DNA of 64,000 nucleotides. Source: Acrocarpospora phusangensis (lineage in GTDB: Bacteria; Actinomycetota; Actinomycetes; Streptosporangiales; Streptosporangiaceae). Below are positions 7,391-43,326 of the stretch, one piece after another. Location: the NCBI RefSeq assembly GCF_016862995.1, contig NZ_BOOA01000046.1:1-64000 (forward strand), given 5' to 3'. Under the pieces are notes generated by a model, which had not been told where the DNA came from, did no database searches, and worked only from the letters and a program-made list of their open reading frames with translations. Numbering within the stretch: the first letter of the stretch is position 1; each line of letters begins with the position of its first letter. Position numbers and translations under genes: made by a program.

Positions 7391-7655
7391 CACGCCTCGC
7401 GCCACCGGCCGACGGCGCACAACGCCGGAGCCCGGCCCAACCGCCCGAACACGCCCCGCGCCATCGAGCGCCTTAGCACAACGCCCGGAGCCCGGCGCAA
7501 CCGCCCGACACGCCCCGCGCCATCGAACGCCCTCGCACACGCCTCGCGCCATCGAGCGCCATCGCACAACGCCCGGAGCCCGGCCCAACCGCCCGGACAC
7601 GCCTCGCGCCATCGAGCGCCATCGGAACGATGCCGGGGGCGAGCCGGGCAGGTGG
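7391..7655. repeat. Tandem ~59-bp intergenic repeat
   Basis: Units begin with CACGCC(T/C)CGCGCCA at about 7391, 7450, 7509, 7538 and 7598. The spacing is 59, 59, 29 and 60 bp, so the third unit is internally shortened. Each full unit also carries an ACGCCCGGAGCCCGGC-like core. The array fills nearly all of the 300-bp space between the phosphoribosyltransferase and rsgA genes. Unit length is not a multiple of three throughout, and no gene is supported here. Confidence 0.85.
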
Positions 7656-7678
7656 ACCCCTCGCGCCGCCGGGCCGCG

Positions 7679-8785
7679 TCACGGCCGGTTGCGGCCCCGC
7701 ATGGACTTGTGGATGATCTTCCACTGGCGGGTCGCCTCGGAGCGGAGCCTGGCGTCGCTGCGGCGGGCCATCCAGGCGGCCTCCCGCTGCAGCTTGAACC
7801 AGCTCTCCAGCCGCCGCTCCGGGAGCACGCCCGCGTCGACGGCCTCCACCACGGCGCAGCCGGGCTCCGAGGTGTGCGAGCAGTCGTCGAAACGGCAGGC
7901 CGCCGCCAGCTCCTCGATGTCGGAGAAGACCAGGTCGACGCCGTCGCTGATGTCGTACAGGCCGACCCGGCGGATGCCCGGGGTGTCGATGATCAGGCCG
8001 CCGCCGGGCAGCGGGATCAGCTCCCGGTGCACGGTGGTGTGCCGGCCCCGGCCGTCGCCGGCCCGGACCTGCTGCGTCTCCATCACGCCGTCGCCGGCGA
8101 GCGCGTTGACGAGCGTGGACTTGCCGGCGCCGGACGGGCCGAGCACGACGGCCGTCCTGGAGCCGTCCAGGTAGGAGCGGACCACGTCCACCCCGTCGCC
8201 GGTGAGCGAGGACACCGCGTGCACGTCCACCCCGGGCGCGACCCCGGCCACGTCGGCCAGGAGGTCGTCCAGGCCCCGGTCGAACAGGTCGGCCTTGGTG
8301 ATGAGCACGACCGGTGTGCCGCCGCTCTCCCAGGCGAGCGCGACCATGCGCTCGATCCGGCCGAGGTCGGCGAAGTCGGTGGCGTGCATGGACGGCTCGG
8401 CGACGAAGACGACGTCCACGTTGGCGGCCAGCACGTGGCCCTGCCCGTCGCCGGACAGGCCGCCGCGGGAGACCCGGCCCACGCCGCCCCGGACGAAGGC
8501 GCTCGTCCGGGGCAGCACGCTGTCGAGTTCGTACCGGCCCTCCGGCAGGTACCGGAGGGCCACCCAGTCGCCCACGCAGGGCAGTTCGACCGGGTTCTCG
8601 GCGGAGGCGCGGCGGATCCTGGCGCCGTACTTGGCCTGGTGCTGGCCGTCGGCGGCGAGGACCTCGGCCACGCCGCGGTCCACGCGGGCGACCCGGGCGG
8701 GAACCATACCCTCAGGCAGGTCGGCGGTCTCCCGCCAACCGAGTTTTACAAGATCGAAAGAACCAGAGAATTCTGGCGAGAACAA
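7679..8785 (-). CDS. rsgA: Ribosome small-subunit GTPase A
   Basis: A 368-residue circularly permuted GTPase that assists late 30S maturation. The permuted motif order is clear: G4 TKAD (163-166), then G1 GPSGAGKST (216-224), then G3 DTPG (267-270), followed by a C-terminal zinc site of Cys297, Cys302, His304 and Cys310. An N-terminal OB-like region (about 25-110) precedes the GTPase. The predicted start is TTG at 8785, with AAGGG about 9 nt upstream; a shorter start within the first 30 codons cannot be excluded. It is transcribed away from glyA's terminator. Confidence 0.92.
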   Translation of the reverse strand: MFSPEFSGSFDLVKLGWRETADLPEGMVPARVARVDRGVAEVLAADGQHQAKYGARIRRASAENPVELPCVGDWVALRYLPEGRYELDSVLPRTSAFVRGGVGRVSRGGLSGDGQGHVLAANVDVVFVAEPSMHATDFADLGRIERMVALAWESGGTPVVLITKADLFDRGLDDLLADVAGVAPGVDVHAVSSLTGDGVDVVRSYLDGSRTAVVLGPSGAGKSTLVNALAGDGVMETQQVRAGDGRGRHTTVHRELIPLPGGGLIIDTPGIRRVGLYDISDGVDLVFSDIEELAAACRFDDCSHTSEPGCAVVEAVDAGVLPERRLESWFKLQREAAWMARRSDARLRSEATRQWKIIHKSMRGRNRP

Positions 8786-10272: not shown

Positions 10273-10299
10273 GGCGCCTTCCTTGTCCACGTTGACAGC

Positions 10300-10400
10300 C
10301 GCGGTGACCCAGGCGCACGGCCTCCGCAGGTTCGCTTCCCGGTGGTGCCCCACCTAGCGACGCGCCCGCAGGGCGACGTCAGCGCCAGTCGCGACCCTGC
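10300..10400 (-). promoter_or_regulatory. ZTP (pfl) riboswitch upstream of glyA
   Basis: The minus-strand leader carries the two conserved blocks of the pfl motif. The 5' block GGGTCGCGACTGGCG lies at 10397-10383, then a variable stem, and the 3' block CCACCGGGAAGCG at 10345-10333 is followed by CGCCTGGGTC at 10315-10306. ZTP riboswitches sense the purine intermediate ZMP/ZTP, which builds up when 10-formyl-tetrahydrofolate is scarce, and glyA is a classic target. The aptamer ends about 30 nt before the ATG, which fits translational or short-range control. Confidence 0.85.
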
Positions 10401-10430
10401 CACCCTATCGGAGCCGTCCGCACGGCCGGG

Positions 10431-10461
10431 ACTACTCGGAGACTACTCGGAGACTACTCGG
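10431..10461. repeat. Three-copy 11-bp direct repeat
   Basis: ACTACTCGGAG occurs almost three times in a row across the stop codon of the YihY-like gene. Because the copies carry in-register stop triplets on the minus strand, the last codons of that gene arise from the repeat. Confidence 0.7.
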
Positions 10462-11416
10462 CGCTCCCCTGGCGACCGGATCCGGCCAGCGGCCAGAGCC
10501 GGTCCACCTCGGCGTTGAGGGTGGCCCCGATGAGCACGGCCAGGGCCGTGATGTACAGCCAGAGCAGCACGGCGATCGGCGCGGCCAGCGAGCCGTAGAT
10601 GGAGAGCGGCTGGAACCAGGCGGCCAGCACCTCGCGCAGCACGGCGGCGCACAGGATCCAGATGACCAGCGCGAGCACCGCGCCGGGCACCTCCCGCCAC
10701 CAGCGGGTCCGCATCGGCACGCTGACGTGGTAGAGCATGGTCAGCATGAGCACCGAGCCGACCACCACGACCGGCCAGTACAGGATGCCGACCAGCCCCT
10801 CGTAGCCGGGCAGCGCGTTGGCCAGCAGGGTCGGGCCGATCACCAGGATCGGCATCACCACCAGGCCGATCAGCAGGGCGGCCAGGTAGAGGCCGAACGA
10901 CATCAGGCGGGTCCTGATGATGCCCCGGGTCTCCCCCAGTCCGTACGCGATGGAGATCAGGTCCACGTACACGAACAGGGCGCGGGACCCCGACCAGAGC
11001 GAGAGCAGGAAGCCGACCGATATCAGCGACACCTCGCCGCCGTCCAGCACGTCGCTGAGCAGCGGTTCGACCACGCTCTTCATCGCGTCGGGGCTGAACA
11101 GCAGGTCGGCGTTCTGGATCACCGACCGCCGGATGGCGACGATGGTCTCGTGGCCCAGCATGCCGCTGAGGTGGCCGAGCACGCCCAGCAGCCCGAGCGC
11201 GAACGGCGGCAGCGACAGCAGCGCGAAAAAGGCGGCCTCGCCCGCGAGGCCGGTGACCCGGTAGTTGACGCCCGCCAGGGTCGTGGTCTTGACCAGTGAC
11301 CAGAACCCCGTGCCGGCCAGGCGCTCCATCCCGGCTCTGGCGCGCGCCATGCCGAAGCGTGACTTGTGCCCCGCCGGATGGCGGGGCCTACGCGACGGCG
11401 CGTCGGTGGACGTCAT
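10454..11416 (-). CDS. YihY/BrkB-type inner membrane protein
   Basis: A 320-residue membrane protein with about six hydrophobic helices and the family segments GLAGEAAFFALLSLPPFALGLLG and SRALFVYVDLISIAYGLGETRG. The family was once annotated as ribonuclease BN, but that is not supported; the present role is unknown, possibly transport or envelope. A basic N-terminus (SRRPRHPAGHKSRFG) precedes the first helix. I begin at ATG 11416; an upstream ATG at 11485 would add a non-conserved leader. The C-terminus ends in an 11-bp repeat array. Confidence 0.85.
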   Translation of the reverse strand: MTSTDAPSRRPRHPAGHKSRFGMARARAGMERLAGTGFWSLVKTTTLAGVNYRVTGLAGEAAFFALLSLPPFALGLLGVLGHLSGMLGHETIVAIRRSVIQNADLLFSPDAMKSVVEPLLSDVLDGGEVSLISVGFLLSLWSGSRALFVYVDLISIAYGLGETRGIIRTRLMSFGLYLAALLIGLVVMPILVIGPTLLANALPGYEGLVGILYWPVVVVGSVLMLTMLYHVSVPMRTRWWREVPGAVLALVIWILCAAVLREVLAAWFQPLSIYGSLAAPIAVLLWLYITALAVLIGATLNAEVDRLWPLAGSGRQGSAE

Positions 11417-11649
11417 GGCACCCAACCGTGTTCGTGGGAATCCCGGGCTCGACCATGGACTACCCGCTACGTGGCCGGATAGCACGGATCATTAGCAGCC
11501 CAGAATACGGTCCCGGGACCGCTCAGGGCAGCAGCGCGCACCGAAACCGGCGGCCGGAAGCTCGGGCGGCCCTACACCACCGGGATTTCCCGAGGTCAAG
11601 TTTTAACCAACCCGGCCCTGGACCGGCGTCCCAAACTGTGGGACCGAAC
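11417..11649. other. Intergenic spacer before sulfur operon
   Basis: This stretch separates the YihY-like gene start from the sulfur-operon promoter. It must contain the minus-strand promoter of the YihY gene. I see no conserved ORF, RNA motif or repeat in it. Confidence 0.5.
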
Positions 11650-11678
11650 TTGGACATCTGTGGTACGCGAGGTATCGT
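11650..11678 (+). promoter_or_regulatory. Promoter of the sulfur assimilation operon
   Basis: TTGGAC (11650-11655) and TATCGT (11673-11678) are separated by exactly 17 bp. The predicted transcription start falls at or 1-2 nt before the ATG at 11686, so the transcript would be leaderless. Confidence 0.7.
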
Positions 11679-11685
11679 TTGGGAC

Positions 11686-11769
11686 ATGCCTGCGGATCCG
11701 ATGCTCGTCGTGCGACGCCACGTCGACCTTCTGCGTGTCCGCAGCGCCATCTGTTACGACGCCCGTTGA
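11686..11769 (+). CDS. Cysteine-responsive leader peptide
   Basis: A 27-codon ORF with no ribosome site, beginning at the predicted transcription start. Its RRHVDLLRVRSAIC core (residues 10-23) matches the actinobacterial leader-peptide family found before sulfate/sulfite assimilation genes. A single cysteine codon (TGT, 11752-11754) lies four codons from the end. A terminator-like stem begins immediately after that codon. The peptide itself probably has no function: ribosome stalling at the Cys codon when Cys-tRNA is low should change RNA folding and allow transcription into sir. The homology is recognised from the motif, and the mechanism is inferred. Confidence 0.85.
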   Translation: MPADPMLVVRRHVDLLRVRSAICYDAR

Positions 11770-11818
11770 CCGTCGCCCCCTTCTCTTGATCGTGGGCGCG
11801 TGAGCAGGCGTCTTTTTT
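11758..11818 (+). terminator. Attenuator downstream of cysteine leader
   Basis: GACGCC (11758-11763, inside the leader ORF) can pair with GGCGTC (11807-11812), which runs straight into TTTTTT (11813-11818). An inner CGCCC/GGGCG pairing (about 11774-11798) supports the fold. Because the 5' arm starts one codon past the Cys codon's neighbour, a stalled ribosome would block it. This fits cysteine-controlled attenuation of the sir operon. Confidence 0.7.
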
Positions 11819-11900
11819 GTGCCCCCGCACTCGACGGCGAGGCGGGAGGAAGCCTGCTACTGCGCCGCCCGTGCCCCAGCTCCTTCGAAAAGGACCAGCC

Positions 11901-13583
11901 ATGAGCACCCCGGCCCGCCCAGGCAACCGGCACCACAAGCGCCCGCGTGGCGAAGGCCAGTGGGCCCTCGGCTATCGGGAACCGCTGAACAAGAACGAGG
12001 AGAACAAGAAGAACGACGACGGCCTCAACGTCCGTCAGCGGATCATCGACATCTACTCCAAGCGCGGCTTCGACTCCATCGACCCCGCCGACCTGCGCGG
12101 CCGGATGCGCTGGTACGGCCTCTACACCCAGCGCAAGCCCGGCATCGACGGCGGCAAGACGGCGATCCTGGAGCCGGAGGAGCTGGACGACCGCTACTTC
12201 ATGCTCCGTATCCGGATCGACGGCGGCCAGCTGAGCCTGCGGCAGCTGCGGGTCATCGCCGACATCTCCAACGAGTTCGGCCGGGGCACCGCCGACATCA
12301 CCGACCGCCAGAACGTGCAGCTGCACTGGGTGGAGGTGGAGTCGGTCCCGGAGATCTGGCGCCGGCTCGAAGAGGTCGGCCTGTCCACCACCGAGGCCTG
12401 CGGCGACACCCCGCGCGTGATCCTCGGCTGCCCGCTGGCGGGCGTGGACGTGGACGAGGTCATCGACGGCACCGAGCAGGTCGCCGAGATCTACGAGCGG
12501 TTCATCGGCGACAAGGCCTTCTCGAACCTGCCGCGCAAGTTCAAGTCCGCGGTCAGCGGGTGCCCGGCCCACTGCACCGTGCACGAGATCAACGACGTCG
12601 CCTTCGTCGGCGTGGTCAACGAGGCCGGCGAGGCCGGTTACGACGCCTGGGTGGGCGGCGGCCTGTCCACCAACCCGATGATCGGCAAGCGGCTCGGCGT
12701 CTTCGTCCGCCCCGACCAGGTGGCCGACGTGTACGGCGGCGTGGTCGGCATCTTCCGCGACTACGGCTACCGCCGCCTGCGCCACCGCGCCCGGATCAAG
12801 TTCCTGATGAACGACTGGGGCCCCGAGCGTTTCCGCGAGGTGCTCCAGAAGGAGTACCTCGGCTACGAGCTGCCCGACGGCCCCGCTCCCGCGCTGCCGC
12901 GCGGCGGCCGGCGCGACCACGTGGGCGTGCACCCGCAGCGGGACGGCAACTTCTACGTCGGCTTCGCCCCCAAGGTGGGCCGCGTGGACGGTGACACCCT
13001 GCACCGGATCGCCGACATCGCCGAGCGGCACGGCTCGGACCGGGTCCGCACCACGGTCGAGCAGAAGATGGTCATCCTGGACATCGCGCCCGGCCTGGTG
13101 GACTCGGCCGTGGCCGAGCTGGAGGCGGCCGACCTCCAGGTCAACCCGTCCACGTTCCGCCGCCAGACGATGGCCTGCACCGGCATCGAGTACTGCAAGC
13201 TCGCCATCGTCGAGACCAAGGCGACGGCGACCACGCTCATCCACGAGCTGGAGAACCGGCTCCCCGACTTCAAGGACCCGCTGACCATCAACGTCAACGG
13301 GTGCCCCAACTCCTGTGCCCGCATCCAGGTCGCCGACATCGGCCTGAAGGGCCAGCTCGTCGTGAACGACCGGGGCGAGCAGGTCGAGGGCTTCCAGATC
13401 CACCTGGGCGGCTCGCTGGGCGCCACGCCCGGTTTCGGGCGCAAGGTCCGCGGCCTGAAGGCCACCGCCGAGGAGCTGCCCGACTACGTGGAGCGCGTGG
13501 TCTCCAACTTCGGCAAACAGAAGAACGACGGCGAGACCTTCGCCGAATGGGTCCAGCGGGCCGACGAGAGCGACCTCAAGTGA
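11901..13583 (+). CDS. sir: Ferredoxin-dependent sulfite reductase
   Basis: A 560-residue siroheme/[4Fe-4S] enzyme of the nitrite/sulfite reductase family that reduces sulfite to sulfide. The cluster/siroheme ligands are Cys426, Cys432 (CTGIEYC) and Cys468, Cys472 (NGCPNSC). Two ferredoxin-like half domains precede the siroheme domains in the usual duplicated order. Tyr72/Tyr75 in RWYGLYTQRK and Cys177 in ILGCPLAG are candidates for the Tyr-Cys crosslink of actinobacterial sulfite reductases such as NirA. AAAAGGA eight bases upstream sets ATG 11901. Its position with cysH and a chelatase supports sulfite over nitrite. Confidence 0.93.
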   Translation: MSTPARPGNRHHKRPRGEGQWALGYREPLNKNEENKKNDDGLNVRQRIIDIYSKRGFDSIDPADLRGRMRWYGLYTQRKPGIDGGKTAILEPEELDDRYFMLRIRIDGGQLSLRQLRVIADISNEFGRGTADITDRQNVQLHWVEVESVPEIWRRLEEVGLSTTEACGDTPRVILGCPLAGVDVDEVIDGTEQVAEIYERFIGDKAFSNLPRKFKSAVSGCPAHCTVHEINDVAFVGVVNEAGEAGYDAWVGGGLSTNPMIGKRLGVFVRPDQVADVYGGVVGIFRDYGYRRLRHRARIKFLMNDWGPERFREVLQKEYLGYELPDGPAPALPRGGRRDHVGVHPQRDGNFYVGFAPKVGRVDGDTLHRIADIAERHGSDRVRTTVEQKMVILDIAPGLVDSAVAELEAADLQVNPSTFRRQTMACTGIEYCKLAIVETKATATTLIHELENRLPDFKDPLTINVNGCPNSCARIQVADIGLKGQLVVNDRGEQVEGFQIHLGGSLGATPGFGRKVRGLKATAEELPDYVERVVSNFGKQKNDGETFAEWVQRADESDLK

Positions 13584-13761: not shown

Positions 13762-14490
13762 ATGACATTGGTGGACATCGAAGTCGGCTTGGAGCGCCAG
13801 CGCGGCGTCCTCGACCTGCAGAGCATCGTCGAGTCGGCGTCCGAGTTCCTGGAGGACGCCCCCGCGCGCGAGATCATCCGCTGGGCTGCGGCCACGTTCG
13901 GCGACCGCCTCTGTCTCACCTCCTCGATGAGCGACGCCCTGCTGATCGACCTGGTCAGCCGGGTGAAGCCGGGCGTGGACGTGCTGTTCATCGACACCGG
14001 CTACCACTTCGCGGAGACGATCGGCACCCGGGACGCGGTCGAGGCCGTCTACCCGGTCAACGTGATCAACGTGACCCCGTCCCGGACGGTCGCCGAGCAG
14101 GACCGCGACCTGGGCCCCCGCCTGTACGGCCGCAACCCCGACCTGTGCTGCTTTCTCCGCAAGGTGGAGCCGCTCAACCGGGCGCTGGAGCCGTACCTGG
14201 CGTGGGTGTCGGGGATTCGGCGGGACGAGTCGCCCACCCGGGCGAACACCCGCGTGGTGGAGTGGGACGCGAAGCGGCAGATGGTCAAGGTCAACCCCAT
14301 CGCCCGCTGGACCCAGGAGGACGTCGACAACTACATCGCCGACAACGGCGTCCTGATCAACCCGCTGCACTACGACAACTACCCCTCCATCGGCTGCGCG
14401 CCCTGCACCCGCCAGGTCGCGCCCGGTGAGGACCCCCGCGCCGGCCGCTGGGCCGGCCTAGGAAAGATCGAATGCGGCATTCACCTGTAA
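13762..14490 (+). CDS. cysH: Adenylylsulfate (APS) reductase
   Basis: A 242-residue PAPS/APS reductase that reduces activated sulfate to sulfite. Cys129-Cys130 and Cys212-Cys215 supply the [4Fe-4S] cluster that marks the APS-specific branch; the catalytic Cys238 sits in the C-terminal ECGIHL. The P-loop-like SSMSDALLIDL and GIRRDESPTRA complete the active site. GAGGAG lies eight to nine bases before ATG 13762. It overlaps the downstream chelatase gene by 19 bp, showing a tight operon with sir. Confidence 0.95.
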   Translation: MTLVDIEVGLERQRGVLDLQSIVESASEFLEDAPAREIIRWAAATFGDRLCLTSSMSDALLIDLVSRVKPGVDVLFIDTGYHFAETIGTRDAVEAVYPVNVINVTPSRTVAEQDRDLGPRLYGRNPDLCCFLRKVEPLNRALEPYLAWVSGIRRDESPTRANTRVVEWDAKRQMVKVNPIARWTQEDVDNYIADNGVLINPLHYDNYPSIGCAPCTRQVAPGEDPRAGRWAGLGKIECGIHL

Positions 14491-15245
14491 TCCCGCTGGT
14501 GGCGGTGGCACACGGGTCCCGCGACCCGCGCGCCGCCGCCGTCATCGCGACCCTCCTGGACCGGGTACGGCTGACGCGTCCCGGCCTGGACGTCCGCACC
14601 GCCTACCTGGACCACGCCCCGCCCACCCTCGCCAGTGCTCTGGCCACCCTCGACACGGCCGTGGTCCTGCCGCTGCTGCTCACCGCCGCGTACCACACCC
14701 GGGTGGACATCCCGGCCGCCCTCCGGGAGGCCGCCTGCCGCCGCCCGCGCCTGTCCGTGCACGTGGGCGACGCGCTCGGCCCGGACCCGCTGCTGGTGGC
14801 CGCCCTGGAACGCCGCCTGACCGAGGCCGGCGTCCCCCTCGGCGATCCCGAGACCGCCGTCGTGCTCGTGTCGGCCGGTTCGAGCGACCCGCGCGCCAAC
14901 GGCACGATCACGCGCATGGCCGCCGAGTGGTCCCGTACCCGATCCTGGTGGTCGGTGACCCCGGCCTTCGCCTCCGCGACCGCTCCCGACCCGGCCACCG
15001 AGGTCACGCGCCTGCTCCGCGCCGGCGCTCCCCGCGTGGTCGTCGCCCCCTACCTGCTGGCTCCCGGCTACTTCGCCGACAAGGTCACCCGGCAGACCAC
15101 GGCCGCGGGCGCCCACACGGTGTCGGACGTCCTGGGCGCGGCCCCGGAACTCACCACGCTGATCCTCCGGCGGTACGAGGAAGCCCTTATCCGGGGAAGC
15201 CGGGCCGTTTCCGCCCGGGACGGGCTCCACGCCGTCACCGCGTGA
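14472..15245 (+). CDS. Sirohydrochlorin chelatase (CbiX/SirB type)
   Basis: A 257-residue two-domain class II chelatase that inserts iron into sirohydrochlorin to complete siroheme, the cofactor of the sulfite reductase three genes upstream. The N-terminal AHGSRDPRA, the central LLLTAAYHTRVDIP and the late YLLAPGYFADKV provide the metal-binding histidines of a tandem CbiX fold. The start overlaps the end of cysH by 19 bp. Cobalt insertion for cobalamin is the alternative substrate, but the neighbours favour siroheme. Confidence 0.88.
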   Translation: MRHSPVIPLVAVAHGSRDPRAAAVIATLLDRVRLTRPGLDVRTAYLDHAPPTLASALATLDTAVVLPLLLTAAYHTRVDIPAALREAACRRPRLSVHVGDALGPDPLLVAALERRLTEAGVPLGDPETAVVLVSAGSSDPRANGTITRMAAEWSRTRSWWSVTPAFASATAPDPATEVTRLLRAGAPRVVVAPYLLAPGYFADKVTRQTTAAGAHTVSDVLGAAPELTTLILRRYEEALIRGSRAVSARDGLHAVTA

Positions 15246-15283
15246 CGGCCGTTGCCTATAAGTCAGTGGCATGTTGGTAACGG

Positions 15284-18064
15284 TTGGTAATCACGGCTGC
15301 CCGGGCCGCGCCGGTTCGCCACCCTGGTGGCGTGAGCAGCTCAGGACGGCAGGCCGACTCTCCTGGCCCATCTGAGGGCGTCACCCTGACCCACTCCACG
15401 GTCGGCGGTGGCGCGTACCGGATCGGATCGGCGCGTGATGTGTCCATCAGCGCGCCACAGCTGTCCGCGCGCCCTCCGCTGCCGGACGCGATCACCACGG
15501 TCGCGCCCGCCGGCCTGACCGGGTTGCCGCGCCGGCCGGCAGCGGTGTTCGTGGGCCGCGACCAAGCTCTGGAGCGGATCGGGCGAGCTCTGGTCCCCGC
15601 GAACGCGGGCGGCGGCGCGGGCCGGGTAGGCGTGATCGCCCAGGCGGCGTTGCTCGGGCTGGGCGGGATCGGCAAGAGCGAGCTCGCGTTGCAGTACGCG
15701 ACCCGGTACCGGGACCGGTATCGGGTGGTGTGGTGGGCCGAGGCGGACAGCCCGGAGCAGATCGAGATCTTCCTCGCCGGTCTGGCGCGCGCGATCTGCG
15801 CGGGATCGCATTCGGTGGCGGCGGGCCAGGCGACCGTGGACGAGGCCGCGGCGTGGGCGCTGGCGTGGCTGACGAACCATGACGGATGGCTGCTGGTCCT
15901 CGACAACGTCGAGGATCCCGCGCACGTGCAGAGCCACCTCGCCCAGCTCAGCGGCAGAGGCCATATCCTCATCACCACCCGGCTGGGAGTCGGCTGGCGT
16001 GAGCACGGCTGCACGCCCATCGACCTGGACGTCCTCACCCCCGGCGCCGCCGCGCGGCTGCTCGCCGATCTGATCGGCACGGACGCGTCCGCCGAGGAGC
16101 TCGCCGAGCTCGCCCACGACCTGGGCTTCCTGCCGCTGGCGTTGACGCAGGCGGCCGCGTTCATCGCGCACACCCCGGGGATCGGCGTGACCGCCTACCG
16201 CTGGCTGCTGCGTGACTCGCCTGCCCGCGCGCACCAGGTGACCGCCGTCGGGGAGGACGCCAAACGCGTCATCGCCCAGGTGTGGGCTCTCACCCGGACC
16301 CGGATCGCCGACTTGGATCCGCTCGCGCCCCAGCTGCTGGAGCTGCTGTCCTGCTATGCCCCGGACCAGCTGCCCATCGGTGTTCTCCATCAGCTGCGTG
16401 GCAGCGACGAGGTTCAGATCGGGAGCGCGCTCGGGCTGCTCGCCTCGTACAACATGATCACCATTGGTGAGGACACGGTCACGGTCCACCGCCTGGTCCA
16501 GGCCGTCACCCTGGTCGGTCTCACTCCCAAGGAGCAGGCCGTCGTCCGGAGTCAGGCCGCCGACCTGCTCACGCAGGCGCTGCCCGCCGACCCGAAGGCG
16601 ATTGGCAACTGGCCGGCGTACGGGCGGCTGCTGGCCCACGCCCGCAGCGTCCTGCCCCCGGGTTCGCCCGCCATGAAGCAGGTCATCGGCTATCTGGGCG
16701 CCAGCGGCGACTACACCACGGCCAGGACCCTGCAACAGCAGCGGTACGAGGCCATCCGCGACGCGCGGGGACCGGAGCACCACGACACGCTGGCCGCGCG
16801 GGCCGACCTCGCCACCTGGACCGGCCTGGCCGGAGAGGCGCTCCGCGCCCGAGAGCAGTACGGCGACCTGCTGCCCGTGTGCGTACGGGTCCTGGGTGCC
16901 GAGCATCCGTACACGCTCACCGCGCAGGCGAACCTGGCGTACTGGGCGGGACAGACAGGGGACGCCGCCGCCGCGCGGGACCAGCTCGCCGCGCTGCTGC
17001 CGGTCCGCCGGCGTGTCTCGGGCGACGCGCATCCCGACACCCTGGGCACCCGCGCCCACCTGGCGACGTGGACGGGCCGGGCGGGGGACGCGGCCGACGC
17101 CCGGCAGAGGTTCACCACGCTGCTCCCGATCATCGAACGCGTGCTCGGCCCGGAACATCCCGAGACGCTCGGCGCACGGGCCGAACTGGCCGGCTGGACC
17201 GGAGAGGCGGGGGACGCGGCCCGGGCGCGGGAGGAGTACACCGCGCTGGTGCCGATCCGCACGCGTGTCTCGGGCGCCGGGCATCCTGACACGCTCGCCG
17301 CGGAGGCGAACCTCGCCCACTGGACGAGGCAGGAGGTCATCGCCCGGGGCGGAGACCACCAGAGTCAGGTCGTCTCCTGGCCCCGGGACAGCTTCATGGG
17401 CATGCTCCCTCCCGACCTGCGTGACCCTCTCCTCGCCAGGGGCATGCGCCGGGTCTTCGGCCCCGGCGACCACCTGATCGCCGGCAACTCCTCCGTCTCC
17501 GCGGCGTTCCTGGTGCTGGAGGGTTTCGTCAAACTCCACGGCACCTCGGACGACGGGCGGCCTGTTCTCCTGACCGTCGCGGGGGCCGGTGACATGATCG
17601 GGATGGAGAGCTCGCTGGACGGCGGTCCTCAACTGGAGGCCGCCGTGGCCGCGTCACGAGTGGTGACACAGGTGCTCCACGGGAAGAACCTGTCCCTCTT
17701 CCTCGACCATCATCAGCAGGCGGAACGGGCGATGGCGCGCTTCATCGTCAGGAAGCTCCGCCTGATCGTGCGGCAGAGAACCGAGTTCTCCGGCGTGTCG
17801 GTCCTGATCAGGCTCGCGCGAGCACTCGACGCTCTGGCCGCCGCGCACGGTCGCCGGACAGAGTCGGGAATCAGGATCGAGGTGCCCTTGAGCCATGCGG
17901 ACATCGCCACCTTGATCGATGCGACCGAGCCCAGCGTTCAGCGGGCGATAAGCGACCTACGCCGGAGAGGCATCATCGTCACCGGCTACCGCCACATCGT
18001 CGTCACGGACTCAGCGGCGCTGGATGCCATCGGCCGGGCCGAGGAGGTACCTCCGGCCGGCTAG
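15284..18064 (+). CDS. STAND NTPase-TPR-Crp/Fnr fusion protein
   Basis: A 926-residue multidomain protein. Residues 1-85 are a Gly/Ser-rich leader with a THSTVGGGAYRIGSARDVSI motif like those preceding NB-ARC proteins. An NB-ARC/STAND ATPase follows: Walker A GLGGIGKS (Lys131), Walker B LLVLD (Asp207), ILITTR and a GLPL-like FLPLALTQAA. Four and a half 42-residue TPR units of the kinesin-light-chain/TPR_10 type occupy about 496-690. Residues 701-926 form what looks like a complete Crp/Fnr regulator, with a cNMP-binding barrel, dimer helix and a winged HTH (SHADIATLIDATEPSVQRAI). STAND-TPR proteins are common; a Crp output domain is not. One open frame covers it all with no frameshift. The N-terminal start is uncertain. 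Confidence 0.88.
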   Translation: MVITAARAAPVRHPGGVSSSGRQADSPGPSEGVTLTHSTVGGGAYRIGSARDVSISAPQLSARPPLPDAITTVAPAGLTGLPRRPAAVFVGRDQALERIGRALVPANAGGGAGRVGVIAQAALLGLGGIGKSELALQYATRYRDRYRVVWWAEADSPEQIEIFLAGLARAICAGSHSVAAGQATVDEAAAWALAWLTNHDGWLLVLDNVEDPAHVQSHLAQLSGRGHILITTRLGVGWREHGCTPIDLDVLTPGAAARLLADLIGTDASAEELAELAHDLGFLPLALTQAAAFIAHTPGIGVTAYRWLLRDSPARAHQVTAVGEDAKRVIAQVWALTRTRIADLDPLAPQLLELLSCYAPDQLPIGVLHQLRGSDEVQIGSALGLLASYNMITIGEDTVTVHRLVQAVTLVGLTPKEQAVVRSQAADLLTQALPADPKAIGNWPAYGRLLAHARSVLPPGSPAMKQVIGYLGASGDYTTARTLQQQRYEAIRDARGPEHHDTLAARADLATWTGLAGEALRAREQYGDLLPVCVRVLGAEHPYTLTAQANLAYWAGQTGDAAAARDQLAALLPVRRRVSGDAHPDTLGTRAHLATWTGRAGDAADARQRFTTLLPIIERVLGPEHPETLGARAELAGWTGEAGDAARAREEYTALVPIRTRVSGAGHPDTLAAEANLAHWTRQEVIARGGDHQSQVVSWPRDSFMGMLPPDLRDPLLARGMRRVFGPGDHLIAGNSSVSAAFLVLEGFVKLHGTSDDGRPVLLTVAGAGDMIGMESSLDGGPQLEAAVAASRVVTQVLHGKNLSLFLDHHQQAERAMARFIVRKLRLIVRQRTEFSGVSVLIRLARALDALAAAHGRRTESGIRIEVPLSHADIATLIDATEPSVQRAISDLRRRGIIVTGYRHIVVTDSAALDAIGRAEEVPPAG
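16769..17331 (+). repeat. 126-bp coding tandem repeats (TPR)
   Basis: Unit starts at 16769, 16895, 17021, 17147 and 17273 give four full 42-codon copies and a fifth cut at about 19 codons. Each unit opens with G-x-x-H-P-x-T-L and contains L-A-x-W-x-G. The fifth unit is truncated where the Crp portion begins, which marks the fusion junction. Confidence 0.85.
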
Positions 18065-18204
18065 CACGCGCCGGCATGCGGGTCCCGGGGTCGTTTTGGG
18101 ACGGCGATCACATGCCTGGTGAGACGGCGTTCCGTGGAACATCTGGGGATATCGTGTCCGTGGTTTGGCTGTCCGGAGACGCTCATCCGGGGAGACCGCC
18201 GATC

Positions 18205-18645
18205 ATGACGATCAAGCACTCAGTTCGTACTGCCGTGATTTCCGCGGTGACCGCGGGTTCCCTCATGATCACGGGAGTGTCGCCGGCGCTGGCGGATGCC
18301 GGTTTGCCCGGTTTGCCCGGTTTGCCGGGCACGAATGCCAAGGCCAACTGCGGCATCCTCACCTGCGATGTGATCTTCTCGCGGGATTTCACCAGATATC
18401 TGAAGGACCTGAGCGGTGACGTGACCTACATCGCCGGTGCGGTCTGCGGCGGCATCGCCGTGGCCGCGACACCGCTGGCGGGCGGCGTGTGCGTCCTCGC
18501 GGTCGCCGCGAAGTACGCGATGATCGCCCCGGTGCTCAAGTACGCGGCCCACACGAACCGGTGCCTCAAACTGCGCTGGCCGATCCCCAGCCCGGAACTG
18601 ATGTGGGCCGAGTACACGGGCGGCGGCGACTGCTTCGACAACTGA
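18205..18645 (+). CDS. Small secreted protein, unknown function
   Basis: A 146-residue protein with a clear Sec signal peptide: a basic start, a hydrophobic core to about residue 28 and an Ala-Leu-Ala-Asp-Ala cleavage region. Just after the signal lies a short GLPGLPGLPG run encoded by near-perfect 9-bp DNA repeats. The mature part has several Cys residues (CGILTC, VCGG, GVC, NRC, DCF) that could form disulfides and a hydrophobic, glycine-rich middle that might insert in a membrane. GGGGAG upstream supports ATG 18205. I do not recognise the family. It follows the STAND-Crp gene by 140 bp. Confidence 0.75.
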   Translation: MTIKHSVRTAVISAVTAGSLMITGVSPALADAGLPGLPGLPGTNAKANCGILTCDVIFSRDFTRYLKDLSGDVTYIAGAVCGGIAVAATPLAGGVCVLAVAAKYAMIAPVLKYAAHTNRCLKLRWPIPSPELMWAEYTGGGDCFDN

Positions 18646-18649
18646 CGGT

Positions 18650-19435
18650 TTACCAGCGAGACGGGTCGGGGGCAGGCGGCGGAGGCGGCGGAGGGGACGG
18701 TGGAGGGGGCTGGGGTGGGGGCGAACCGCGGTTGATCTGGAGCCAGGCGGTGTGGGCGTCGCGGAGGGCGTTGTGGGCGGGGTTGCCCAGTTCGTGGTCG
18801 GCCTGGCGGCGGCGGTCGAGCCACCAGTCGCTCCAGGCGGCCCAGGTGCGCTTGATGGGCTCGGCGCGGGAGTCACCGATGATCTTGATGTCGCCCATGA
18901 TGGCGTAGCCGCGGACGCGGACGACCGGGACGTTCTGGCCGGGCGGCGCCTCGACGACCTTGACCTTCTTGTCGCCCATGATCGACATGCCGGACAGCTC
19001 GACGTCCACGCCGTCCGGCACGATGATCTTGACGTCGCCCATCACGCTGGTGGCGACGATGTCCACCTCGTTGCTGCGGACCTCGGCCTCCCGCAGGTCG
19101 AGCACGACGTCGCCCATCACGCAGACGACCCCGATCTCCTGGTCGATCCGCCATTTGCCGCGCCGCTTGGTGTCGCCCATCACGGCCACGAACCAGCGCC
19201 TGGCCTTGCCCTTGGCCGGGGGCGTGACCGGTAACGGGGCCGGACCGCCCGCGCCGGCGGGCAGATCGGCGGTGATCTGCGCCAGTTCGGCATGTGTCTG
19301 GGCGAGATAGGCCGCCTCGGTCCTCTCGGTGAGCTCGGCGAGGGTCAGCCGCCCTTCCACCGACGCGTCCCGCAACCGCTCGACCACGGCTTCGCGCTCC
19401 GCGTCCGAAGCGCGCATTCCGCCTGGCTCGTTCAT
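18650..19435 (-). CDS. DUF1707 / LiaF-like cell-wall stress protein
   Basis: About 261 residues. The N-terminal DUF1707 (SHOCT-like) domain is RASDAEREAVVERLRDASVEGRLTLAEL; the middle carries LiaF-type repeats, each containing V/I-M-G-D (VMGDTK, VMGDVV, VMGDVK, IMGDKK, IMGDIK). The C-terminal tail is proline-rich. No membrane helix is seen, so it is probably a cytoplasmic or DNA-associated member. LiaF-related proteins modulate cell-envelope stress responses. GTG 19441, ATG 19435 and ATG 19417 are all possible starts; the domain itself starts at the last. Its stop lies 5 bp from the convergent secreted-protein gene. Confidence 0.85.
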   Translation of the reverse strand: MNEPGGMRASDAEREAVVERLRDASVEGRLTLAELTERTEAAYLAQTHAELAQITADLPAGAGGPAPLPVTPPAKGKARRWFVAVMGDTKRRGKWRIDQEIGVVCVMGDVVLDLREAEVRSNEVDIVATSVMGDVKIIVPDGVDVELSGMSIMGDKKVKVVEAPPGQNVPVVRVRGYAIMGDIKIIGDSRAEPIKRTWAAWSDWWLDRRRQADHELGNPAHNALRDAHTAWLQINRGSPPPQPPPPSPPPPPPPAPDPSRW

Positions 19436-19535
19436 ACCCACGAATCTAGCCCCCGCCCGCGGCAGACTCTCTCCTCCCTAGGAACGATTCCGGGCGCTGG
19501 CGTGAGGAGCTTCGCGACTGTGTGACGATGGAACC

Positions 19536-21038
19536 GTGACAGGCAGTGAGCTGATGACCGCGGTGGCGGAAGACGACCTGGTCCGGGTGCGTGCGCTGCT
19601 CCGCCCGGGCGTGGACCTGAACCCCGATCGCGGCACCACCCCGCTCTACGAGGCCGCCGTGCACGGCAACGGCGACATGATCCGCCTGCTGCTGGAGTAC
19701 GGCGCGGATCCCGACCTGCCCAGTCACGGCCCCGACGAGGGCCTGCCGCTGTGCGCCGCCGCCTGCTGGGACCACGACGAGGCCGTGCTCGCCCTGCTGG
19801 ACGGGGGCGCCAACCCCGACGCGGCCGAGGACGGCTGGACGGCGCTGCTCTGGGCGGCCGGCCTCGGCCACCTGGCCACGGCCGACGTGCTGCTCGACGG
19901 CGGCGCGAACCCCGACGCGGGCTGCCCGCACACCCCCCTCACCGCCGCCGCCCGGTTCGGGGCGTACGGGATCGTCTGGTCCCTGCTGGAACACGGCGCG
20001 GACCCGGCGAAACCCGATGACGGCGGCCTCACCGCGCTGGAGATCGCGCGGGAGCTGTCGGAGGCCGACCTGGAGGCGCTGCTGACCTCGCGCATTGACG
20101 CCAACGTCGAGGCGAAGGAGTCGGCGGAGTCCGCCGACCAGGAGGGCAGGGTGATCGTGGTCAGCCGGTCGCACGCCGCCGACGGGACCGAGCTGGTGGA
20201 GGTCGAGGCGGACGGCACCCGGCTGGCCATCCAGCGCGGGCACGCGGCCGTGGCGACGATCCTGGAGGACGCGCTGGGCATCCGGACGCCGGTCGCGGAG
20301 CTGATGGCGCGGGCCGTGCCGTACCGGGATCGGGATGAGGGTGGGGAGACGTGGTGGGCGGCCGTGCATTCGGTGCAGAACCGGCATGACGAGGAGACGT
20401 TCGGGGCGGCGGTGGAGTTGTGCGCCTCGTCTGATCCGGTGACCCGGGATTTCGGGGTGGACGTGCTGTCGCAGTTCGGGTTCACGGCCGACGACCGGCC
20501 GTATCTGGAGCGCACGCTGCCGGTGTTGCAGGGGCTGGCCGAGCGGGAGCAGGATCCGCGGGTCGTGGAGTCGGTGCTGGGGGCGCTGGGGCAGCAGGGC
20601 GACCCGAGAGCGCTGCCCGAGGTCCTGGCGATCATCGGCAGGCCGGGCCGGGAGCACTCCGTCCGGGATGCAATCGCCCTGTCCGCCGTGCTGACGCCCG
20701 GCCACGCCGAAGGGCTGACCTGCCTGATCGGCCTCTCCCGGCATCCGTCGGCCGAGATCCGCGACTACGCCACCCATGGGCTGGCCGCCCTGGGTGACGG
20801 CTTCGACGGCGACGCCGTCCTGGAAGCGCTCCACGACCGCGTCAGTGACCCGGACCTGAGCACCACGGCCGAGGCCGCCGCCGCGCTGGCCGCCCGCCAC
20901 GACCGCCGCGCCATCGACGCCATCCACCGCGTCCTCTGCGAGACCGACCAGGACGACCCCGACGACGAGTACATCCGCGAGCTGGCCCTGGAGGCCGCCA
21001 CCCTGCTCAACCTGGATCTCCCCGACCTCACCCACTGA
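19536..21038 (+). CDS. Ankyrin- and HEAT-repeat protein
   Basis: A 500-residue repeat protein. The first ~180 residues are ankyrin repeats (for example GTTPLYEAAVHGNGDMIRLL and LLDGGANPD units). Residues about 270-490 are HEAT/armadillo-like helices with VVESVLGALGQQGDPRALPEV and related segments. There is no signal peptide, enzyme motif or membrane helix, so a cytoplasmic protein-binding scaffold is likely. The GTG at 19536 has no clear ribosome site and may be leaderless or begin at ATG 19554. It overlaps the convergent SRPBCC gene by 11 bp. The partner is unknown. Confidence 0.8.
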   Translation: MTGSELMTAVAEDDLVRVRALLRPGVDLNPDRGTTPLYEAAVHGNGDMIRLLLEYGADPDLPSHGPDEGLPLCAAACWDHDEAVLALLDGGANPDAAEDGWTALLWAAGLGHLATADVLLDGGANPDAGCPHTPLTAAARFGAYGIVWSLLEHGADPAKPDDGGLTALEIARELSEADLEALLTSRIDANVEAKESAESADQEGRVIVVSRSHAADGTELVEVEADGTRLAIQRGHAAVATILEDALGIRTPVAELMARAVPYRDRDEGGETWWAAVHSVQNRHDEETFGAAVELCASSDPVTRDFGVDVLSQFGFTADDRPYLERTLPVLQGLAEREQDPRVVESVLGALGQQGDPRALPEVLAIIGRPGREHSVRDAIALSAVLTPGHAEGLTCLIGLSRHPSAEIRDYATHGLAALGDGFDGDAVLEALHDRVSDPDLSTTAEAAAALAARHDRRAIDAIHRVLCETDQDDPDDEYIRELALEAATLLNLDLPDLTH

Positions 21039-41918: not shown

Positions 41919-43326
41919 GCTGCCATTCTCCCCCCGGGCCCAGGTGCTCCAGAATCCGGGATGCTGCTCTCCTGGCCGTGCCCACCGTGGCGGGCACGCC
42001 GAGGCCGTCGTAGGCGGCCCCGCAGACGGCCAGCCCGGGCTGCTCGGCCACGGCGGCGAAGACGCGCGCGACGCGGTCGAGATGGCCGACGTGGTACTGC
42101 GGCAGGCCGCCGCCCCACCTGCTGACCCGCGAGTCGATCGGCACGCCGCGCAGGCCGGCGGTCTCGGCCAGCTCGGCCGTGGCGAGGGCGACCAGCTCGG
42201 CGTCGTCGCGCTGGAGCAGCCGCTCCTCGCCGACCCGGCCGATGGAGCAGCGGACCAGGACGACCCCGGCCTCGGCCAGGTACGGCCACTTGCTGGTGCT
42301 GAAGGTGACGGCCTTGACCGCGCGTCCCTCGACGGGCGGCACGAGGTAGCCGCTGCCCCCGGGGAGGGACGGAGCGGCGTCCCGGGCGTAGGCGAGGGTG
42401 ATGATGGCCATGCTGGCGTACTCGATCCGGGCGAGTTCGGCCGCGGCGGCGGGCACGTCATGGCTCAGGAGCCGCGCGGCGGGAGCCGCGGGTACGGCCA
42501 GCACGACGGCGTCGGCCTCGACCACGGCCTCGTCCCTGGTGGGGCCGGTGACGAGCCGCCAGCCCGCCGGGGCCCGGCGCAGGCCGCGCACCATGACCCC
42601 GGTCCTGACCTGCGCGCCGGAGGCTTCGGCCAGGGCGGGGGGCAGGCCGCCGAGGCCGCCGTCGAGGGTGGTGAAGACCGGTCCCGCGTTCTTCGGGGCG
42701 GCGGCCACGAGGTCCTCGGCCGCGCGCAGCAGGGAGCGTTCCTTCCTGGCCGCGGCGGCGATGGCCGGCATGGTGGCGTCCAGGGAGAGCCGGTCGGCCC
42801 GTCCCGCGTACACGCCGCCCAGCAGCGGCTCGACCAGGCGGTCGACGATCTCCTCGCCCATCCTGGCCGTGACGTACTCGGCCACGGAGACGTCGGCGTC
42901 GAGCGGCGTGGCGGGCAGGACGCGGTCCATGGGCACCCGGGCCAGGCCGTCCGCCGACAGGATGCCCGAGGCGGCCAGCGCGTCCAGGTCGGACGGCACG
43001 CCCATGACCTGGCCCGCGGGCATCGGGCGCAGCTCGCCCCGCGACAGGATGGACGACCGGGTGGTGCCGGGGTCGACCAGCCGGTCCGCGAGACCGATCG
43101 AGGCGACCAGCTCCCTGCCCTCCGGGCGGCGCGCCAGCATGGACTCCGCGCCCGCGTCGATCAGCACTCCCGCCACCTCGGAGGCGTGGAGTTTGCCGCC
43201 GATCCGGGAGCCGCCCTCCAGGACCGTGATCCGCAGCCGCGGGCCGCCCTCCGACCGGAGGAACCACGCCGCCGCCAGTCCGGCGATGCCCGCCCCCACG
43301 ATCACGACGTGCTTGTCCGTCCCCAT
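41872..43326 (-). CDS. hemY: Coproporphyrinogen III oxidase (HemY type)
   Basis: A 484-residue FAD enzyme that oxidises coproporphyrinogen III to coproporphyrin III in the Gram-positive heme route. The N-terminal [21 protein letters not shown] and [12 protein letters not shown] bind FAD; the middle [26 protein letters not shown] is typical of HemY/CgoX. ATG 43326 begins directly before the dinucleotide fold. It overlaps hemQ at its 3' end. Older annotation calls it protoporphyrinogen oxidase. Confidence 0.93.

Follow-up and report, generated by a model that had tools for sequence, protein, structure and literature searches.

The window analysed here, a 64,000-nucleotide stretch of DNA from the soil actinomycete Acrocarpospora phusangensis (GCF_016862995.1; NZ_BOOA01000046.1, positions 1 to 64,000), contains a gene at 15284–18064 in which a complete Crp/Fnr protein follows, in frame, a STAND ATPase with tetratricopeptide repeats (TPR). 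On the evidence of its sequence, we favour, at a probability of roughly 0.55, the reading that this gene encodes a single-polypeptide, STAND-gated transcription regulator resembling AfsR and MalT, with the Crp part as a DNA-binding output that is probably independent of cyclic nucleotide monophosphates (cNMP). The protein carries a STAND ATPase, repeats and a DNA-binding domain in one chain, the architecture that characterizes AfsR/MalT-type regulators. Its features suggest that the switch part, and not a small messenger, decides when the Crp acts.

Two proteins end to end in one frame

The source is a 9.1-Mb draft genome of 219 contigs, of which the window represents contig C46. The fused gene, like each feature of it described below, lies on the forward strand and is a single open frame of 926 codons from TTG 15284 or 910 codons from GTG 15332 (residue 17; numbering from the TTG). 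The G+C content at third codon positions (GC3) was 0.80–0.98 from residue 61 through the junction to the C-terminus. In the first 60 codons it was lower, 0.73, so GTG 15332 may be the better start.

The domain content bore out the preliminary description, which had read STAND, TPR and a complete Crp/Fnr protein in one frame. The STAND/NB-ARC-type ATPase region spans approximately residues 89–280 (15548–16123), matching Pfam AAA_16 (89–214) and NB-ARC (122–280) below their cut-offs; DUF7779 also scored below cut-off in the protein. The Walker A motif GLGGIGKS, with Lys131, and the Walker B motif LLVLDN, with Asp207, were read directly from the translation at the positions already reported for them. 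NCBIfam NF040586 (FxSxx_TPR) gave a whole-protein score of 350.9 against a cut-off of 300, its best stretch being residues 87–453. The TPR array (approximately residues 478–683; 16715–17332) matched TPR_10, in four stretches, and TPR_12 above cut-off. Behind it lie the Crp sensor barrel (approximately residues 705–806, 17396–17701; cNMP_binding 723–802) and the Crp-type winged helix-turn-helix (wHTH; residues 843–915, 17810–18028; HTH_Crp_2). Both Pfam matches of the Crp half were well supported (PF00027, 37.8 bits against a cut-off of 27.5; PF13545, 52.5 against 27), and the Crp part matched solved Crp/Fnr structures with E values of about 1e-15. No defence family among the PADLOC models was matched by the fusion protein at E 0.01.

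The fifth TPR unit, which is cut short just before the Crp part, might be read as a mark of the fusion event. It is not one: the half unit in question, HPDTLAAEANLAHWTR, is also where the homologues end. At 20 of 22 close homologue loci, a half unit of the form HPxTL...LAxW is followed by a stop, and the same half unit precedes the Crp in the fusion. Two of these loci, L081 and L098, look like one Nonomuraea gene; the exceptions are L095, discussed below, and L101, whose 366-residue tail was considered as a second fusion and set aside as read-through by eye with no Pfam match of its own. In a wider set of 64 loci, window excluded, 41 stop within 40 residues of the last motif of this type, 19 are longer (by eye, mostly TPR-like sequence that has diverged) and 4 lack the motif in the frame read. 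A breakpoint within a TPR was therefore rejected, and the STAND half appears to be whole up to the usual C-terminus of its family. One homologue, from A. corrugata (L040; G002:C38, 112577–114333; NZ_BLAD01000038.1), is split across three reading frames, apparently as a pseudogene or through sequencing errors.

The Crp half likewise appears to be whole, aligning with its relatives from near its own N-terminus. Standalone paralogues start with MSHLSEHDRWPATSLMGML, and the fusion aligns there as GDHQSQVVSWPRDSFMGML. The junction, approximately residues 684–701 (17333–17384), aligns with the paralogue N-terminus and contains neither an in-frame start nor an in-frame stop. By these comparisons, the fusion gene appears to be real, complete and uncommon, and to consist of two whole proteins placed end to end.

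Uneven divergence within the Crp half

The Crp part was compared with 23 other Crps, giving 276 pairs, which are not independent; the compared rows include near duplicates. Its nearest relatives are standalone Acrocarpospora Crps: a paralogue in the same genome (G000:C36, 44915–45607), G002:C41 and G001:C2. The wHTH of the fusion was 0.68, 0.69 and 0.61 identical to these three, respectively, the next best value being 0.49; for the barrel, the corresponding identities were 0.38, 0.37 and 0.36. Against its own paralogue, 49 of 72 wHTH residues were identical versus 44 of 117 in the barrel (Fisher p = 5e-5). The excess of wHTH over barrel identity in the three fusion–Acrocarpospora pairs (0.33, 0.30 and 0.25) ranked as the top three of the 276; in the 253 pairs without the window Crp, the mean difference was 0.046 with a standard deviation of 0.063.

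The trees repeated this asymmetry. In the barrel tree, the fusion fell in the Acrocarpospora clade (support 99/99) on an end branch of 2.53 changes per column; in the wHTH tree, its end branch was 0.36 changes per column, with weaker support (88/67). A chimeric origin of the Crp, its barrel and wHTH drawn from different sources, was not favoured, as the barrel itself groups with Acrocarpospora, albeit on a long branch; its top identity, 0.38, is to the same-genus paralogue and hardly above the 0.37 found for others. At shared residues, codon identity between the fusion and its own paralogue was 0.55 in the barrel and 0.53 in the wHTH. This equality argues that the likeness of the wHTH to the paralogue does not stem from recent gene conversion, and the domain appears instead to have been held under constraint for about the age of the genus.

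The changes in the barrel extend to the ligand pocket, whose positions were placed by alignment to Mycobacterium tuberculosis Crp structures. The fusion has Met774 where 21 of the 23 other Crps have Glu, and Gln783 where 22 of the 23 have Arg. We take these Glu and Arg residues to bind the phosphate and ribose of the cNMP in Crp. The pair from the phosphate-binding cassette that marks a cNMP-responsive Crp is accordingly missing from the fusion, and residues 785–805 are only 14% identical to the paralogue. To judge from the alignment, the ligand pocket has decayed while the DNA-binding end has been well kept. The standalone paralogue, which adjoins thioredoxin-like and thioredoxin-reductase-like genes, retains both Glu and Arg.

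Rarity and competing explanations

As a full-length query against five genus genomes, the fusion protein matched only itself. Matches at 1e-70 were found in 65 of 297 order genomes and, among the matches listed, all but the window's own ended at or before query residue 693; 346 phylum genomes gave one other match at 1e-60, ending at residue 634. The Crp part alone had matches in 9 of 297 family genomes (1e-40) and in 25 of 394 class genomes (1e-32). Outside the window, these lay in frames of 232–368 amino acids, save one of 589 amino acids whose upstream part is not coding-like. Two long frames considered as possible fusions, G001:C98 (712 amino acids) and G045:C3 (589 amino acids), were by reading standalone Crps with a non-coding-like upstream frame. 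Among 156 plasmid records, query coverage of at least 80% was reached in one, from Micromonospora maris, via two separate genes in reversed order. The genome sets were drawn from larger groups and overlap, and the best candidates scored per genome numbered 9 (family), 3 (order), 2 (phylum) and 7 (class); distant fusions could escape such a search. The preliminary description had proposed counting how often the architecture recurs: with genomes from genus to phylum and plasmids covered, no second genome with the fusion was found. Likewise, no description of a STAND-TPR-Crp chain was found in the open-licence literature.

The gene lies in a segment of approximately 3.4 kb (15246–18646), shared with an orphan gene for a predicted secreted protein and flanked by a CbiX-type and a DUF1707 gene. 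The segment is absent from two congeners, A. corrugata (G002) and G001, which have only a short spacer between the flanking genes. In two others, G003 and G004, the contigs (G003:C50, G003:C44, G004:C129 and G004:C60) break exactly between these genes, so the syntenic site is unreadable. The fusion gene would thus be a lineage-specific insertion or have been lost elsewhere. A mobile element with terminal repeats was considered and rejected, the two 160-base stretches at the segment ends sharing no 9-mer.

Several observations weigh against a STAND-gated regulator. Among the genomes searched, the fusion appears to be a singleton of one Acrocarpospora genome, and the proposal so far concerns one gene from one assembly. 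At none of 60 homologue loci was a Crp gene found near the STAND gene at E 1e-6, so a Crp is not the usual partner of this STAND family; a two-gene STAND and Crp operon, considered as the ancestor, was not seen at these loci. Accidental fusions appear to occur in this family: at L095 (G172:C1, 7366–7692), a STAND-TPR homologue continues in frame into the 3' part of an Rv1155-like PPOX gene, and the tail corresponds to residues 53–141 of a 147-residue Rv1155-type protein, the first 52 being missing, which makes it a truncating fusion. With respect to the barrel, fast change may also mean decay, and the tree tool warned that the long branch makes the placement less sure. Finally, codon identity between the fusion and the other two orthologues was higher in the wHTH than in the barrel (0.54 versus 0.42 and 0.64 versus 0.45); the standalone Crps show the same trend among themselves (0.89 versus 0.78 and 0.68 versus 0.58).

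One alternative is that the fusion is an accident of this lineage and carries little or no regulatory meaning: a STAND gene would have ended up in front of a Crp duplicate, its stop would have disappeared and the barrel would have been decaying since. The confinement to one genome, the missing segment in the two congeners, the broken PPOX-like gene at L095 and the barrel branch of 2.53 are all consistent with this, as is the lack of a common neighbour among the STAND homologue loci beyond small groups of at most 5 loci. A fusion without function is harder to reconcile with a frame and GC3 that are intact throughout, with two whole halves and with a wHTH that has stayed 68% identical, its synonymous divergence being comparable to that seen among congeners. 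We consider it rather doubtful.

It is unlikely, in our estimate, that the fused Crp still senses a ligand, be it a different nucleotide or another small molecule, such that two inputs are integrated. Other ligands or cofactors occur in the Crp/Fnr family, and the barrel has been kept at full length. However, both expected cNMP contacts are changed, and residues 785–805 share only 14% identity with the paralogue.

Less probable again is that the Crp part exists separately in the cell, through proteolysis or an internal start at Met705 or Met707, leaving the STAND part to act alone as in its homologues. The STAND part needs no Crp to be complete, and in-frame ATGs at 17396 and 17402 correspond to the MGM found in the conserved N-terminal stretch. 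Nevertheless, no Shine-Dalgarno sequence is evident in the 25 bases upstream of them, the paralogues reach approximately ten residues further upstream, and no sigma-70-type promoter match was found in 14400–19500, which is a weak test in actinomycetes. No in-frame start codon occurs between residues 656 and 705; as the junction also contains no stop, there is no well-formed separate Crp start except Met705/707.

An assembly chimera or sequencing error joining two genes has in its favour the draft state of the genome and the occurrence in one assembly only, and we consider it very improbable: no near-identical copy of the junction (17130–17450) exists elsewhere in the genome, the only other matches being two internal TPR copies (72–73%) and short chance matches, so nothing would mislead an assembler into this join. 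Across 17300–17460, the three forward frames contain one stop, at 17422, which is not in the frame of the gene and already lies within the Crp-homologous part; restoring a STAND stop ahead of a Crp start, and with them two well-formed genes, would therefore take more than one indel near the junction. A misassembly or a two-gene reading thus appears unlikely. The preliminary description would have taken a fusion confined to one assembly, with homologues encoding the halves as separate genes, for an artefact. The confinement is what we found among the assemblies searched, whereas the homologues have no Crp gene beside them, and an artefact is disfavoured.

Locus, related systems and a proposed mechanism

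Upstream of the fusion gene lie sulphur-assimilation genes encoding a sulphite/nitrite-reductase-type protein, a PAPS reductase and CbiX. The orphan gene that follows it (18205–18645, forward strand) encodes, by reading, an apparent signal peptide and GLPGLPGLPG repeats. It had no Pfam or NCBIfam match, found only its own copy in 200 family genomes and matched nothing in 72,556 plasmid records. Further downstream are the DUF1707/LiaF-like gene and, at 19536–21038, a gene for a 500-residue ankyrin- and HEAT-repeat protein. Neither FxsA, FxsB nor a metallopeptidase was recognised in the ten neighbouring genes scanned, and none of these ten was named as a precursor-peptide or radical-SAM maturase gene of an FxSxx-COOH system.

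The orphan gene had been put forward as a target of the regulator. Its lack of homologues in the genomes and plasmids searched lends this no support, and neither does the distribution of a palindrome associated with the standalone Crp. Upstream of that gene, a block, GGAACGTTCCCGGTAGCAGT, is fully conserved in three genomes (L044, L043 and L045; G000:C36:44839 and G002:C41:74700 among the positions) and may be an operator or promoter element. The 14-mer GGGAACGTTCCCGG had 18 matches in five genomes versus none for the reversed control, some of them in genomes in which no close Crp orthologue was found. Within the window, the palindrome had one two-mismatch match, at 42732, against 4.45 expected by chance, and an operator in common with the paralogue was rejected there. 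Because the wHTH is close to that of the paralogue, the targets are probably shared with it.

STAND-TPR proteins had been described as usually ending in their repeats and Crps as standing alone. What is unusual in the fusion is that the added domain is a Crp and that it is C-terminal; STAND proteins with a DNA-binding domain are well known from AfsR and MalT. MalT and the LAL proteins are STAND transcription regulators of this kind. AfsR resembles the fusion in having a STAND ATPase, TPRs and a DNA-binding domain in one protein; its SARP domain is N-terminal, whereas the fusion has a C-terminal Crp, barrel and wHTH, behind the TPRs. In AfsR, according to the published account, the DNA-binding domain is kept inhibited by the NOD and TPR parts until ATP binds, and this relief alters neither the oligomeric state nor DNA binding (PMC10936776). 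The idea of a one-component regulator survives in the STAND-gated reading; oligomerisation as the driver of DNA binding, as originally suggested, finds no parallel in that account of AfsR.

The STAND part itself is closest to FxsT (NF040586) and the AP-ATPase-TPR proteins. According to Kaur et al. (2020, PMC7159879), AP-ATPase-TPR genes of actinobacterial peptide-processing systems are in some cases linked to genes for CRP-like factors, for which cNMP sensing is supposed. The Crp is linked there and fused here, and the Crp of the fusion lacks the cNMP residues. The fusion thus seems to be a covalent version of that pairing, with the supposed cNMP sensing lost in this copy, and possibly a Rosetta-stone case for the reported gene linkage. 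The M. maris plasmid pVMKU (L080) offers one unfused parallel: a Crp gene (7608–8744) is separated by 1.5 kb from a STAND-TPR gene downstream of it (10274–11998), and this Crp has Asp and Gln at the two pocket positions altered in the fusion. There, the genes are separate, the Crp has an N-terminal extension of its own and the STAND part is 36% identical. The standalone Acrocarpospora Crps, by contrast, share the wHTH and keep Glu and Arg.

The sequence itself shows an FxsT-like STAND ATPase-TPR protein that is whole to its usual end and then passes, with the frame unbroken, into a full copy of a Crp also present in the genus as a standalone gene; since that duplication, the barrel has diverged fast, exchanging the two expected cNMP contacts, as the wHTH stayed like that of the paralogue. 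For the STAND-gated regulator, we propose the following mechanism. The TPR array would sense a protein or peptide. By analogy with AfsR, the STAND-TPR part would restrain or misplace the Crp dimer until the TPR ligand and ATP throw the switch, whereupon the STAND part, on binding ATP, would change conformation and release or present the dimer. The dimer would then bind operators resembling the standalone paralogue's, and the barrel would mainly provide a dimerisation scaffold and a hinge instead of sensing cNMP.

More tentatively, and as a possibility only, we suggest domain capture: a duplicated Crp would have lost its cyclic-nucleotide input, kept the DNA specificity of its sister and become the output of a STAND switch of the immune type, rewiring a regulon. 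If so, a peptide- or protein-sensing STAND ATPase would directly command promoters that answer to another signal through the sister Crp, and the M. maris Crp beside its STAND-TPR gene, with the same two pocket positions changed, would be a second, unfused step along the same road. Actinomycetes have abundant STAND ATPases, relatives of the ones at work in apoptosis and plant immunity; for most of them, to our knowledge, the output is not known. In the fusion, the output would be a well-understood DNA-binding dimer with a standalone sister, and the question of what a STAND switch does could become a simple reporter experiment.

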